A stretch of DNA of 64,000 nt from Campylobacteraceae bacterium (GTDB lineage Bacteria > Campylobacterota > Campylobacteria > Campylobacterales > Sulfurovaceae): NCBI GenBank assembly GCA_027024155.1, contig JALVTE010000121.1, positions 1 to 64,000 on the forward strand, read 5' to 3'. The position numbers were made by a program, and so were the translations under genes. Positions 6,785 to 51,822 of the stretch are shown here, piece after piece (the first letter of the stretch is position 1; each line of letters starts with the position of its first letter). Below the pieces are notes generated by a model that was not told where the DNA came from, made no database searches, and saw only the letters and a program-made list of their open reading frames with translations.

Positions 6785-7966
6785 ATGAAAAAAATCATAA
6801 TTACAGGTTTATCTATTGCGACTATTGCGATATTAACTGGATGTGGTGGTGGAGGTTCTTCTTCTTCAAATATAAAAACTGGAACAGGAAGTTACCAAGA
6901 TTCTGCTGTAGAAGGTGTAAATTATAAATGTGGTTCTCAAACAGGTATAACTGATAAAGATGGAAAGTTTACTTTCGAAGATGGAAAAGATTGTGAGTTT
7001 ACATTAGCGGGTGCTAAATTAAGAGATGTTTCAAAAGATGATTTAAAAGATAATGTAATTATTTTAGAAGACAATACAACTGTTCAATCGCTATTACAAA
7101 CTTTAGATGTTGATGGTAATGCTAGCAATGGTATTACAATTACAGCTAATGAAGTAGGGGCTATTAAAAATATTATGAAAGGAAAAGTTCCAGAAACATA
7201 TAATGGATTAGTTGAAATTCAGTCAGAAGTTCAACAACGATGTAGAGATGAATATCATGGACATATTGTAACACCAGAAGAGGCAGAAAAACATTTTCAC
7301 AAAACTGCTCAAAACGTGATAACTAATCTTTTAAAAGGCAAAACTTTTTACTCTGTAGATTATAGTGATAATACAGGTAAAAGAGCTTTAGTTAAAATAA
7401 CAATAGATGAAAATGCAACATCTGCATCTGTAGAAGTGCTAGCAGGAGCTGATAAAGGGCAAGAAAAAAATAGCACGATTAAAATTATAGGTAATAGACT
7501 TATATCAACAAGTAACGATGAATCTGAAGTTTATATAGTAAAAGAAAAAGCTAAATATATATTATTAAAGGAAGTTGGAGAAGATGATAAAGCTGTAAAT
7601 TTATACTATTCACAAGCCGATGCAAAAGCAGAATATGAAAAATATTTAGCAACAAATATAACAAAATTAATAGCTGGTAAAACTTTATATGTATATAATG
7701 GTGGAGCAACTATATCTACTGCCATAATAAATTCTAATGCAACAACAATTAAATTTGGAACAGATAGTGCTGAACAAATTAAAATTACAGATGGGGTAAT
7801 AATTGGAGCTGATGGCACGAAGCATATTATAGATGAAATTACAAATACATATATAAAAGGACATAGCGAATTTGGAGGTGATTTTATTTTCTTTTTTAAT
7901 AAAGCAGATGCACAGGCTTATTTAAAAGGAAACCATAGTGGTGATGAAGATAACGATACTGAATAA
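6785..7966 (+). CDS. Lipoprotein with two similar C-terminal domains
   Basis: A 393-residue predicted lipoprotein. The N-terminal signal ends in the lipobox LTGC followed by a Gly/Ser-rich tether. ATG at 6785 is chosen because AGGAG sits 5 nt upstream; a GTG at 6779 overlaps that site. Residues about 180-280 and 285-385 look like two copies of one domain: each opens with TNLLKGKTFYSV or TKLIAGKTLYVY and closes with YYSQADAKAEYEKYL or FFNKADAQAYL. That suggests an internal duplication. The domain is not recognised. The tail is acidic (SGDEDNDTE). A cell-surface or periplasmic role is likely; function is unknown. Confidence 0.7.
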   Translation: MKKIIITGLSIATIAILTGCGGGGSSSSNIKTGTGSYQDSAVEGVNYKCGSQTGITDKDGKFTFEDGKDCEFTLAGAKLRDVSKDDLKDNVIILEDNTTVQSLLQTLDVDGNASNGITITANEVGAIKNIMKGKVPETYNGLVEIQSEVQQRCRDEYHGHIVTPEEAEKHFHKTAQNVITNLLKGKTFYSVDYSDNTGKRALVKITIDENATSASVEVLAGADKGQEKNSTIKIIGNRLISTSNDESEVYIVKEKAKYILLKEVGEDDKAVNLYYSQADAKAEYEKYLATNITKLIAGKTLYVYNGGATISTAIINSNATTIKFGTDSAEQIKITDGVIIGADGTKHIIDEITNTYIKGHSEFGGDFIFFFNKADAQAYLKGNHSGDEDNDTE

Positions 7967-42662: not shown

Positions 42663-42878
42663 ATGCCTAAAAATGCTTTTTCTTGGATTTATCATCTATA
42701 TGTTGATGGATTTAGAGGGATGAAGCTTGGTAAAAAGTTATGGCTTATTGTAGCTATTAAGTTGTTTATACTCTTTGTTGTTATTAAATTACTCTTTTTC
42801 CCAAATGTTTTAAAAGAGAATTTTAAAAGCGACAAGGCAAGAAGCAACTATATTTTAGAACAATTAACTATTAACTGA
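42663..42878 (+). CDS. DUF4492 protein of cytochrome bd operon
   Basis: A 71-residue membrane protein (FSWIYHLYVDGFRGMKLGKK, then one hydrophobic helix LWLIVAIKLFILFVVIKLLFF). DUF4492 proteins are encoded just in front of cydA in Campylobacterota and Bacteroidota, and a role in oxidase assembly is presumed. TAAGGAAATCAA precedes the ATG. Its stop codon TGA (42876-42878) lies inside the left arm of the 272-bp structured element. Confidence 0.85.
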   Translation: MPKNAFSWIYHLYVDGFRGMKLGKKLWLIVAIKLFILFVVIKLLFFPNVLKENFKSDKARSNYILEQLTIN

Positions 42879-43143
42879 AGTTACGCACTATATACAATAT
42901 TTAACAAATCAAAAAAGTGACAAATATGAAAGAATAAATTCTCTCTCCTAGCCGAAGCTAAGAGTGATAATTTTTCTTTTATAGGTGTTACTTTTTTGTT
43001 TTGCCCTATGGGTAGCACAAGAGGGCACTTACTGCAAATACTTTTTAACGCAAGTTAGCTTTGGCTAGCTTTTATTAAAAATTATTCACATTAAGCACCC
43101 TCTTGTGCTATTAAATGTTGCATATAGTGCGTAACTTCAGTTA
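42872..43143. repeat. 272-bp multi-stem palindromic element E1
   Basis: Fills the gap between DUF4492 and cydA. The outer stem is 42872-42904 with 43111-43143 (31 of 33 positions identical; the first 22 perfect). Hairpin A is 42905-42952 with 42957-43003 around loop CGAA. The linker 43004-43012 is CCCTATGGG. Hairpin B is 43013-43059 with 43064-43110 around loop TTTG. The tips read CTAGC-CGAA-GCTAA and TTAGC-TTTG-GCTAG. The parts sum to exactly 272. The same architecture with other stem sequences recurs at 51551-51822. RNA structure and mobile palindrome are both possible. Confidence 0.85.
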
Positions 43144-46328: not shown

Positions 46329-46436
46329 AGGGCACCTACAATGGCGTTAAGTTAAGGATTCTACATCCATTTATTGGCTTTAAGCTCAAAGCCGAAAGCT
46401 TAAAGCTATCCACTTCGTCACTCCCACGGAAGTGGG
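46326..46436. repeat. Left part of IS-interrupted MITE-like element
   Basis: Starts with the direct repeat TAAAGGGCACCTA (46326-46338), also found at 48253-48265, then terminal inverted repeat CAATGGCGTTAAGTTAAGG (46339-46357). The inverted repeat continues as GCTTTAAGCTCAAAGCCGAAAGC, pairing with 48190-48220. The sequence is broken by the IS4-family insertion at 46437. No gene is seen. Confidence 0.7.
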
Positions 46437-47928
46437 CAATGCCAATGAAATAAGCAAAAAAACGATAAAATATCAATATTAAAAGTTTAATAAAAAGTAG
46501 TAAAAAATGATAAAAAAAGACATTAAGAAAGTTGGTAAAACTAAGAAAAAAAATCAATTCAAAAACAATAATAGAAAAATATAAAATAGGGATGAAAAGC
46601 TTTACAAGAAAGACAAAAATGAACTTTGCAGATATGACACTTTTTATGATGAATATGGTTAGTAAAACAATGCAAAGAGAGATAAATGATTTTATAAAAA
46701 ATGTAAAAAAGAAAGAGATGAGTTACTCAAAAAGTGCAGTAAGTAAAGCAAGAGTAAAAATTTCTCCAGAGTTATTTAAAGAATTAAATGATGGATTTGT
46801 TCAAGATATTTATGAAGATAAAGAAGAGGTAAAATTATATAGAGGGTTTAGAATATTTGGAGTAGATGGGTCAAGATTAGAACTTCCCAATATGACAATA
46901 CCAAAAGATAAAAAGCAGAGTGAAACTTTAAAAGAGATATATGGACAAGTAAGTGACCACAATGGTAAATATGCAGTGATGCCAAGAGTTTCAATTATGC
47001 ATGATTTAGAGAATAATATAGTAGTTGATGGTATCTTAAATAGTCTCCATGCAAGTGAAGGATTTATGGCAATAGAACATCTTGAACATTTGCTAAAACT
47101 AAATAAAAATATAAAACAAGAGTATAAAGATTTAGTAATATATGATAGAGGATACCCATCAATGGGGCTTATTGCCTATCACTACAAGAATAATATTGAT
47201 TTTATAATGAGAGTAAACAGTAAATCATTTGGAGCAGTTCAACAATTTAAAAGAAGTAAAAAGAGTGATGAGATAATAGAGTTAGAAGTTACACATAGTA
47301 TTTTAAGTAACATGTCAAAAGAGACACATCATCCCAAAATAAAGCAGTTAAGAAATAAACTAAAGGTAAGAGATAAACTAAAGGTAAGAGCAATTAAAGT
47401 TGTTCTTGCAAATGGGGAGATTGAGGTATTATTAACATCTTTATTGTTACAAAATGAATTTAAAACAAAAGATTTTAAAGAGTTCTATTTTAAAAGATGG
47501 GGAGTAGAAATATCTTATGATATTTTAAAAAATATATTCAATATAGAGAATTTTACAGGTTTAACACAAATAGCTATTAACCAAGATTTCTTTGCTACTA
47601 TCTTAACAAATAATATTTGTGCTTTGGTTATGAGTGATGTAATGGAAGAGAAAGTTAGCATTTATAATAATAAAAAAGAGAGGAAATATCTTTATCAATT
47701 AAACAGAAACTTCTCTATTGGTTGCATGAAAGATACACTAGTTTCAATGCTTATGAAAAATGCTCGTATTGAAAAAATATATCAGTTAATCGAAGATGAA
47801 ATTATCTCTAATTTGGTACCTATAAAACCCGATAGAAGTTTTGATAGGAAAAGGAAATCTAGTACTAAATTTCCTGTTGCTAAGAAAGATGGTTTTTAGG
47901 TGTTTTTGGGCTTATTTCATTGGCATTG
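46437..47928 (+). mobile_element. IS4-family insertion sequence, complete
   Basis: A 1492-bp insertion sequence with terminal inverted repeats CAATGCCAATGAAATAAGC at 46437-46455 and its exact complement at 47910-47928. It is flanked by a 10-bp target duplication CGGAAGTGGG (46427-46436 and 47929-47938), a length typical of IS4 elements. It carries one intact transposase gene. The intact ends and duplication point to a recent insertion into the surrounding MITE-like repeat. Confidence 0.93.
46532..47899 (+). CDS. IS4-family transposase
   Basis: A 455-residue DDE transposase. The catalytic residues are seen in FGVDGSRLELP (Asp), LVIYDRGYPSMGLIAYH (Asp), and YFKRWGVEISYDILK, which exactly fits the IS4 motif Y-x2-R-x3-E-x6-K. 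The frame is intact. The start is TTG at 46532, since an in-frame stop lies at 46508; ATG at 46592 with AGGG in front is an alternative. It is contained within the insertion sequence. Confidence 0.93.
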   Translation: MVKLRKKINSKTIIEKYKIGMKSFTRKTKMNFADMTLFMMNMVSKTMQREINDFIKNVKKKEMSYSKSAVSKARVKISPELFKELNDGFVQDIYEDKEEVKLYRGFRIFGVDGSRLELPNMTIPKDKKQSETLKEIYGQVSDHNGKYAVMPRVSIMHDLENNIVVDGILNSLHASEGFMAIEHLEHLLKLNKNIKQEYKDLVIYDRGYPSMGLIAYHYKNNIDFIMRVNSKSFGAVQQFKRSKKSDEIIELEVTHSILSNMSKETHHPKIKQLRNKLKVRDKLKVRAIKVVLANGEIEVLLTSLLLQNEFKTKDFKEFYFKRWGVEISYDILKNIFNIENFTGLTQIAINQDFFATILTNNICALVMSDVMEEKVSIYNNKKERKYLYQLNRNFSIGCMKDTLVSMLMKNARIEKIYQLIEDEIISNLVPIKPDRSFDRKRKSSTKFPVAKKDGF

Positions 47929-48265
47929 CGGAAGTGGGTCCACGATTTCAACTGCCTAAAAGTTGAAAAAGTACTTTTTCAGCAGTTTAAACTGTGGATT
48001 CCCGTTTTCAGAGATTGTGAGAAAACTTGGCATTTCTTGGAAGTGAGACTTTAGTCTCACTTGTGCTTTGCACTCTCTTTGAGAAAAATATTACCAATAA
48101 ATGGCAATAACAAGATGAGGCTAAAGCCTCATTTCCATTGTTTTCTAAGTTTTTTCACAATCTTTCACGGGAATGACATGGTGGCAAGCTTTTTGCTTTC
48201 GGCTTTAAGCTTATAGCATTTTATGGAGTTAAAACTCTTAACTTAATGGCATTAAAGGGCACCTA
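47929..48265. repeat. Right part of IS-interrupted MITE-like element
   Basis: A 337-bp gene-free stretch with many hairpins: GTGAGACTTTAGTCTCAC (48043-48060), GATGAGGCTAAAGCCTCAT (48113-48131), and an inner inverted repeat ATTCCCGTTTTCAGAGATTG (47998-48017) against 48145-48174. It ends with CTTAACTTAATGGCATTA and the direct repeat TAAAGGGCACCTA (48253-48265). Without the insertion sequence and one duplication the element would be about 412 bp. Its end shares AATGCCAWT with the IS4 terminal repeat. Confidence 0.7.
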
Positions 48266-50220: not shown

Positions 50221-51558
50221 ATGAGCAATCAAAAAGCATTTGGACTTTGGAGTGCGGTTTTTTTAGGTATTGGCTCTATGGTTGGGGCTGGTATTTTTGT
50301 GCTTTTAGGTGAAGCAGGAGCTATTGCCGGTAACTTGGTTTGGATTTCGTTTATATTTGGTGGACTTATTGCTCTGCTTAGTGGCTACTCTTTAGCAAAA
50401 TTGGCAACTGTTTATCCGAGTCGTGGGGGTTTGGTTGAGTATTTAGTGCAATGTTATGACGAAGGTGTATTCTCTGGTTCAGTTTCGGTGCTATTTTATA
50501 TGAGTGCAATGGTTGCTATTGCAATGGTTGCTAAGACTTTTGGAGTCTATGCTGCCCAAATGTTTACAGGTACAAGTAATACACTTATTGCTAACAGCTT
50601 TGCTGTTGGTGTATTAGTTGTTTTTATGCTTATAAATTTAGCGGGTAGCTCTATTATTGCTAAAAGTGAAAATGTTATTGTTATAATTAAATTAACCATA
50701 ATTACACTATTTACAATCATTGCATTTTTTTACATTAAACCAAATTTACTATCTTTAAAAGATGCACCACCGGTTATTAATGTATTTTCATCAATCGCAC
50801 TTACATTCTTTGCATACGAAGGTTTTAGGGTAATAACAAATACCGCCGAAGATATGAAAGACCCAGCTAAATTGATGCTAAAATCTATGACCATTGCAAT
50901 TTTGCTTGTAATGGTGCTTTATGTTGCAACAACTTTTGCCGTATTTGGTAATTTGCCACTGCCAGATATTATTAAAGCTAAAGATTACGCACTTGCCGAG
51001 GCAGCAAAACCGGCTTTTGGCGAAACAGGCTTTGTAATAATGTCTATTGCTGCGTTAATTTCGACGGCTTCATCTATAAATGCAAATTTGTATGCAGTTA
51101 CAAATGTAACTTACCAAATGGCGGTAAATGGCGAGTTGCCAGAAGTTTATGATAGAAATGTTTGGCACTCTACACAAGGATTGGTCGTTAGTACAATTAT
51201 TTTAATAATATTTGTATTGTTTTTTGATTTAACACAAATTGCAGCGATTGGCTCTATTTCGATTTTGTTTGTTCATGCCTTGGTGCATATTGGGCATCTG
51301 CTTAAAATAGATAAAACCAAAGCATCTAAAACATTGGTGATTTTGGCTATTTTAGGTACATTTACAGCAATAGGTTTGGCACTTAACTATACATCTAAAC
51401 ATATACCAAGTGTTGGCTACTATATCGCTGCTGGTTTTCTGTTGGCATTTTTAATAGAGATTTTTTTACGCTTAATTACCAAAAGAGTTGTTAAGAAGCA
51501 GACAAAAGAGGGTATAATAAAGAAATTAGAAGATGAAATAAAAGAGATATTAACCTGA
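50221..51558 (+). CDS. APC-family amino acid permease
   Basis: A 445-residue transporter with 12 hydrophobic helices. The opening FLGIGSMVGAGIFVLLGEAG is the APC signature and FFAYEGFRVITNTAEDMKDP is helix 6. It is similar to the permease at 33795-35096 through most of its length. Substrate is unknown. AAAAGGTAAGTT precedes the ATG. Its stop TGA lies inside the left arm of element E2 (51556-51558). Confidence 0.9.
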   Translation: MSNQKAFGLWSAVFLGIGSMVGAGIFVLLGEAGAIAGNLVWISFIFGGLIALLSGYSLAKLATVYPSRGGLVEYLVQCYDEGVFSGSVSVLFYMSAMVAIAMVAKTFGVYAAQMFTGTSNTLIANSFAVGVLVVFMLINLAGSSIIAKSENVIVIIKLTIITLFTIIAFFYIKPNLLSLKDAPPVINVFSSIALTFFAYEGFRVITNTAEDMKDPAKLMLKSMTIAILLVMVLYVATTFAVFGNLPLPDIIKAKDYALAEAAKPAFGETGFVIMSIAALISTASSINANLYAVTNVTYQMAVNGELPEVYDRNVWHSTQGLVVSTIILIIFVLFFDLTQIAAIGSISILFVHALVHIGHLLKIDKTKASKTLVILAILGTFTAIGLALNYTSKHIPSVGYYIAAGFLLAFLIEIFLRLITKRVVKKQTKEGIIKKLEDEIKEILT

Positions 51559-51822
51559 GTTTGATAGAGTATACTATCCACAATTTTACGAGGTTTTCTA
51601 TAGGCAACGATACATTTTTGCAGGACTAGCCAACAGCTAATTCAAAAAAATGTATATAAGCATATAGGAAACCTCGTAAAACCCAAGGGGAAGCCTAAAA
51701 ATAGGCAATCTTTCCAAAATTAAATTCTTGAATTAGCTTTAGCTAGTCCTACGAATTGAATTATGAAAACCTTACCTATTTTTAAACTTTTGTGGACAGC
51801 ATACTCTATCAAACTCAGGTTA
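51551..51822. repeat. 272-bp multi-stem palindromic element E2
   Basis: Fills the gap between the APC permease and the next small gene. The outer stem is 51551-51583 with 51790-51822 (31 of 33 positions identical). Hairpin A is 51584-51630 with 51636-51681 around CAACA. The linker 51682-51690 is CCCAAGGGG. Hairpin B is 51691-51737 with 51742-51789 around TTTA. The tips are CTAGC-CAACA-GCTAA and TTAGC-TTTA-GCTAG. Segment lengths and order match E1 within one base, and both total 272 bp, while the stems differ in sequence. An RNA motif or a palindromic mobile element. Confidence 0.85.

Follow-up and report, generated by a model that had tools for sequence, protein, structure and literature searches.

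The window, the whole 64,000-nt stretch of DNA analysed here, contains two copies of a short element built from inverted repeats. One of these, E2, occupies positions 51551–51822 (272 nt) and consists of a 33-nt outer inverted repeat that encloses two hairpins of about 98 nt (98–99 nt), with a CCC-N-GGG mini-hairpin between them. The amino-acid permease ORF upstream (50221–51558) terminates at a TGA within the left terminal repeat of E2, and E2 itself contains no ORF of 100 aa or more. The other copy, E1 (42872–43143), is followed immediately by the gene for cytochrome bd subunit I (43159). Both copies sit in same-strand gene pairs beside a Shine-Dalgarno sequence. The parts of the two elements are as follows, with scores from a covariance model (R1) described below.

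51551–51583, + strand: E2 left outer arm (terminal inverted repeat), starting TAACCTGAGTT; 31 of its 33 nt pair with the right arm
51584–51681, + strand: E2 first hairpin (A-type), with the tip pattern; model R1 75.7 bits over 1–96 of 96
51623–51643, + strand: conserved tip of the E2 first hairpin, GGACTAGC-CAACA-GCTAATTC
51682–51690, + strand: E2 mini-hairpin linker, CCCAAGGGG, read as CCC-AA-GGGG
51691–51789, + strand: E2 second hairpin; model R1 43.6 bits on the minus strand, 51693–51787
51730–51749, + strand: tip of the E2 second hairpin, reverse complement of the A tip
51790–51822, + strand: E2 right outer arm (terminal inverted repeat), with TAAGGAG directly after it and then the next small ORF
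42872–42904, + strand: E1 left outer arm (terminal inverted repeat), starting TAACTGAAGTT
42905–43003, + strand: E1 first hairpin; model R1 28.8 bits, full length, filters off
43004–43012, + strand: E1 mini-hairpin linker, CCC-TAT-GGG
43013–43110, + strand: E1 second hairpin; model R1 42.9 bits on the minus strand
43111–43143, + strand: E1 right outer arm (terminal inverted repeat); the Shine-Dalgarno of the cytochrome bd subunit I gene follows directly

The initial annotation had described arms, hairpins and linker of E2 in these places, and its description holds. The 33-nt arms are 94% complementary, and the predicted minimum free energy of the element is −107.5 kcal/mol for the + strand and −128.5 kcal/mol for the − strand, compared with about −46 and −54 kcal/mol for shuffled sequences (z = −13.5 and −15.8 respectively, with none of 200 shuffles folding as well). 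For E1 the corresponding z is −17.3. E1 and E2 do share one plan, as had been claimed from their matching segment lengths, but the hairpin-to-hairpin correspondence drawn from those lengths is probably crossed: assigned from alignment scores together with the matches to model R1, the relative orientation of the two copies appears to be reversed (alignment score 7.5 in reverse orientation versus −3.0 in forward), which went unseen because the near-dyad symmetry of the element masks its orientation. The statement that the stems differ almost completely was too strong, since E1 and E2 are 61–65% identical in a gapped alignment, and the mismatch at position 23 of the outer stem, taken as a conserved feature of both copies, is polymorphic within the E1 family and so does not speak for conservation.

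The genome that contains the window (2.15 Mb in 123 contigs) carries at least nine near-full-length copies of the E1 family with 85–96% identity and five copies of the E2 family with 79–100% identity. It also contains several subfamilies with the same plan and 33-nt ends that are unrelated in sequence, for example at C24:682-952, C31:9774-10041, C56:5707-5979 and C1:7051-7320. Types of end among the elements include GGGCACC, TTACCGCACC, AGTCCTT and AGTACCT. TAAC/GTTA ends are restricted to E1/E2-like subfamilies, and the other subfamilies have different ends. A fold-based detector returned 19 non-redundant elements from this genome, which therefore holds at least 19 copies, and the same fold is present in about 20 further genomes; the E1 family itself also occurs in a sister genome (G004). 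Across the order, the tip GGACTAGC-N(2-6)-GCTAATTC was found in 43 of 399 genomes (18 of 87 genera) and the reversed pattern in 0 of the 399. Regions around the tip matches repeat the element, with hairpins of 89–100 and 91–102 nt and a linker that is mostly 9 nt, and two genomes, G178 and G148, carry 10 and 7 near-identical copies respectively. Reduced forms were also seen: elements cut down to a 54-bp outer stem in G178 (L304, about 1177–1230) and an element with a truncated interior in the window's own genome (C19, L041, about 6839–6917), both looking like products of inner-hairpin deletion. In the same genome a degraded GGGCACC-type element lies beside a run of 100 N (C121, L046, 166313–166412), probably an assembly gap at the repeat.

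The elements are mobile. The site of E1 is empty in four related genomes (G004, G005, G010 and G011) and that of E2 in three (G004, G005 and G009). Copies of the GGGCACC type are flanked by a 4-bp direct repeat at 14 of 23 sites, where 3.4 would be expected, and copies of the E1 type by a 3-bp direct repeat (or a TWWWA 5-bp repeat) at 9 of 17 sites, where 2.0 (1.6) would be expected; TTACC-type copies have constant TA..TA flanks only. The sister flanks of E2 have diverged by about 11%, so the exact target duplication of the window copy is unreadable. From the empty sister sites and the target duplications in the E1 and GGGCACC families it follows that E1 and E2 are copies of MITE-like non-autonomous transposons.

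To describe the fold across its sequence range we built alignment A1 from 20 divergent representatives, among them E1 and E2, and derived a consensus structure with RNAalifold. This structure contains 95 pairs, 88 of which have changed on both sides, which bears out the compensatory change in the stems that had been proposed from E1 and E2. Paired cells amount to 88.9% of the alignment's pair positions; shuffling lowers this to 60.6%, and sliding one side leaves no more than 48.9%. The covariation score is 0.736 against 0.214, and none of 500 shuffles was as well paired. Covariation of the outer stem is at least partly expected because this stem is the terminal inverted repeat, the two ends of which must match for the transposase. 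In the inner helices 2, 3, 6 and 7, however, all 48 pairs show double-sided changes, so the covariation is not only an effect of the terminal repeats. The initial annotation had named chance or independent palindromes as what to conclude if no more copies were found or if their stems failed to covary; copies were found and their stems covary, and together with the shuffle z-scores this rules out both. Its phrase "structure, not sequence" fits in that the architecture is kept over stem sequence, but several interior parts are conserved in sequence across families, namely the tips, the mini-hairpin and two internal loops (AAGGC.../TAACG... and GCAATCT.../AATCTYAC), and an A.C mismatch in the tip persists across elements.

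The 20 hairpins that went into model R1 all come from Campylobacterota elements other than E1 and E2; the E-values of the model are rough. Over the 64-kb window with default filters it gave only three matches: the first hairpin of E2 (+ strand, 75.7 bits), the second hairpin of E2 (− strand, 43.6 bits) and the second hairpin of E1 (− strand, 42.9 bits). With filters off on the E1 region it placed the first hairpin of E1 at exactly 42905–43003 (28.8 bits).

The same interior also occurs in other bacterial classes, among them marine alpha- and gammaproteobacteria, and the ends around it belong to different transposon families. A search of annotated plasmids identified the A-type hairpin in Sulfurovum mangrovi, Pseudosulfitobacter, Pseudoalteromonas and Catenovulum. 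R1 scores 51–60 bits on the roseobacter loci and 35–47 bits on most of the Pseudoalteromonas and Catenovulum loci, with one weak match of 23 bits, compared with no match on 44 viral control loci. In a Phaeobacter copy the plan is complete, down to the mini-hairpin CCC-GAA-GGG. Three Pseudoalteromonas loci (L352, L354 and L361) hold shorter versions of 195–243 nt, whose ends resemble those of E2 and which seem to have a single A-type hairpin. A solitary A-type hairpin lies just downstream of a gene on a plasmid of Subdoligranulum variabile (Bacillota; OY725836.1, L298, 2980–3074; R1 75.6 bits), which we read as a solo or differently packaged version of the module. Carriage by viruses was considered and rejected: the IMG/VR matches to the tip pattern contain no element and are apparently due to chance, there were 0 matches to a longer pattern, and the interior had no match in a phage collection.

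The terminal sequence of the roseobacter elements, GGCTCTGGACCCATTAATC, is almost that of IS5-family insertion sequences. In all five of the plasmid records examined an IS5-family transposase starts about 55 bp inside such ends, which are of the GGCTC(T/A)GGACCCATTAA type. The Pseudoalteromonas elements end in AACCTGA(G/A)(T/C)TC(G/T)GGATAA or close variants, and these resemble the ends of an IS982-family insertion sequence in Thiothrix (L356; 994 bp, AACCTGAGTTCGGGATAAG ends, with ATACT on both sides). The first 12 bases, AACCTGAGTTCG, are shared with the E2 relatives. E2's own ends may thus be of IS982 type, a link made through a single insertion sequence, which a query composed from several family members matched at E = 0.4, and through only about 12 of 19 terminal bases shared between E2 relatives and IS982 ends. 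Judged by terminal sequence, the same interior lies between the ends of at least two transposase families.

An IS982-family enzyme would accordingly be the best candidate, on end similarity, for mobilising the E1/E2 type. In the window's own genome neither an IS982 nor an IS630 transposase was found, the only DDE_Tnp_1 matches being one IS4 and one IS5_4, and in G178 and G148 there was no match to the DDE_Tnp_1 or DDE_3 families. Since these three genomes lack a detected cognate transposase, the copies in them may be orphans or may be moved by another type of enzyme. No autonomous copy with the same ends was found in the window's genome or in G178, and a candidate single end in G178 turned out to be an ordinary gene upstream region. 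IS630 gave no convincing match in 12 genomes.

On balance, we think it probable that the element is mobilised in trans and that its interior, a folding module acting at the DNA level, is retained because it helps the element to spread in its own right. The 33-nt outer arms, as terminal inverted repeats, would be acted on by a DDE transposase encoded elsewhere. The geneless interior is a conserved module of two hairpins with the mini-hairpin between them, such that one strand of the whole element could fold into a four-way junction. We attribute the persistence of this module to its own contribution to spread because it sits between the ends of different transposase families, which supports selection acting on the interior itself. 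Most likely this contribution would be made by the DNA itself: in a single-stranded or cruciform state of the element, such as might arise at a replication fork or under supercoiling, the module may fold, bring both ends into one duplex and present its conserved mismatched loops and tips to the transposase or to a host factor. In a bolder version the folded-DNA module would itself be the unit of selection, a structural parasite that has repeatedly acquired ends from one transposase family or another (IS982-like, IS5-like and others), has crossed bacterial classes in this way, and needs the single-strand fold for movement or copying; this is possible, but we hold it to be doubtful.

Strong covariation is by itself no proof of RNA, and the RNA reading implied by the initial annotation is not the one the data favour. 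An element acting in transcripts, as an mRNA stabiliser, an attenuator or a small RNA with pairing selected in the RNA, would suit the very stable folds, the conserved internal loops and tips that resemble RNA motifs, and the position of E1 and E2 beside Shine-Dalgarno sequences. Structured RNAs usually show many more G-U than A-C mismatches. In a strand-symmetric alignment of the arms, however, the outer stem has 69 G-U and 68 A-C mismatches; in alignment A1 the numbers are 89 and 53, with a folding method that favours G-U. The element matches no Rfam family. Among 51 elements whose gene context was tabulated with a simple ORF caller, none lies inside an ORF, 12 lie between divergent genes and 8 between convergent genes, and in co-directional gene pairs the canonical strand of the element is the same as that of the genes in 11 cases and opposite in 16. 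The equal numbers of G-U and A-C mismatches and the lack of orientation bias favour a fold at the DNA level, and we consider a structured RNA unlikely. It is similarly improbable that the palindromes are neutral, with template switching or intrastrand correction copying one arm onto the other and the module merely recording common descent. The changes are mostly from one Watson-Crick pair to another with few G-U intermediates, as templated correction would give, and deletion derivatives cut down to the outer stem exist, but mismatches such as those in the AAGGC/TAACG loops and the A.C in the tip are conserved and not corrected, and hairpin lengths stay at 89–102 nt across families and are similar in other bacterial classes.

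Two other readings make use of the folded strand, and we give each very little weight. As inverted hairpin pairs with conserved tips the elements resemble REP doublets, and genes for Y1 (HUH) transposases, which would bind such hairpins and move them as REP/REPIN-like elements, are present in G000, G178 and G075. Against this, no Y1 transposase match was found in the carriers G148, G350 and G362, so Y1 is not needed for the elements, and the Y1 mechanism involves neither target duplications nor long terminal inverted repeats. Alternatively, the module could be a folded single-strand site for replication or recombination (attC-like, or a single-strand origin or promoter) that hitch-hikes in transposons. 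Integron attC sites are recognised as a folded single strand by their structure and fixed mismatches while their stems are free to vary, and the elements likewise combine freely varying stems and strand-symmetric mismatches with fixed mismatches, tips and loops. They are, however, without an integron context, have target duplications, show no associated recombinase or plasmid function, and do not share attC-type terminal boxes across families.

The elements share features with several systems already described. A MITE of about 240 bp in Cardinium consists of short repeats reported as likely derived from a parental IS982-family element (PMC9769881). Like it, the present element is short, non-coding and multicopy with IS982-like inverted-repeat ends, but its interior is a conserved two-hairpin module that is also found between IS5-type and other ends. 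The roseobacter members in turn are like IS5-family MITEs in having terminal repeats that resemble IS5 insertion sequences, with TA at the ends, but have an interior fold common to elements with IS982-like and other ends. GTAG/CGTC-tagged REPs and REPINs are intergenic palindromes of 20–40 bp, often in inverted pairs, and are known in Sulfurovum (PMC3733652); the elements described here are also intergenic palindromes in inverted pairs, but they measure about 270 nt, possess long terminal repeats, show target duplications and are present in genomes where no Y1 gene was detected. A locus that does look like REP/RAYT lies in the window's own genome (C31, L049, 6182–7649), where GTAGGGTCGGTTTACCGACC palindromes cluster around a 155-aa Y1 transposase. 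A literature search by topic and by end sequence, with most subscription journals outside its coverage, returned no description of the architecture, and an earlier description is possible.

MITEs are usually seen as decayed insertion sequences with an arbitrary interior, while here it is the interior that is conserved and the ends that can be exchanged. Should the DNA fold be required, the element would be a transposon whose interior is selected for structure, with RNA-like covariation at the level of DNA, and would offer a handle on whether bacterial MITEs move via single-stranded or cruciform intermediates.

The window contains other mobile sequences. An IS4-family insertion sequence at 46436–47929 encodes a 455-aa DDE transposase and has ends CAATGCCAATGAAATAAGC with a duplication of about 10 bp, CGGAAGTGGG; its family and different ends led us to reject it as the mobiliser of E1 and E2. 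It sits within another repeat, flanked by GGGCACCT. Positions 1–190 belong to a high-copy repeat with TTAACTTAATGGCAATG that has 47 matches in the same genome, many of them at contig ends, and is similar to the inverted ends, CAATGCCATTAAGCTAAG, of an IS4-like insertion sequence in G075 (L344).
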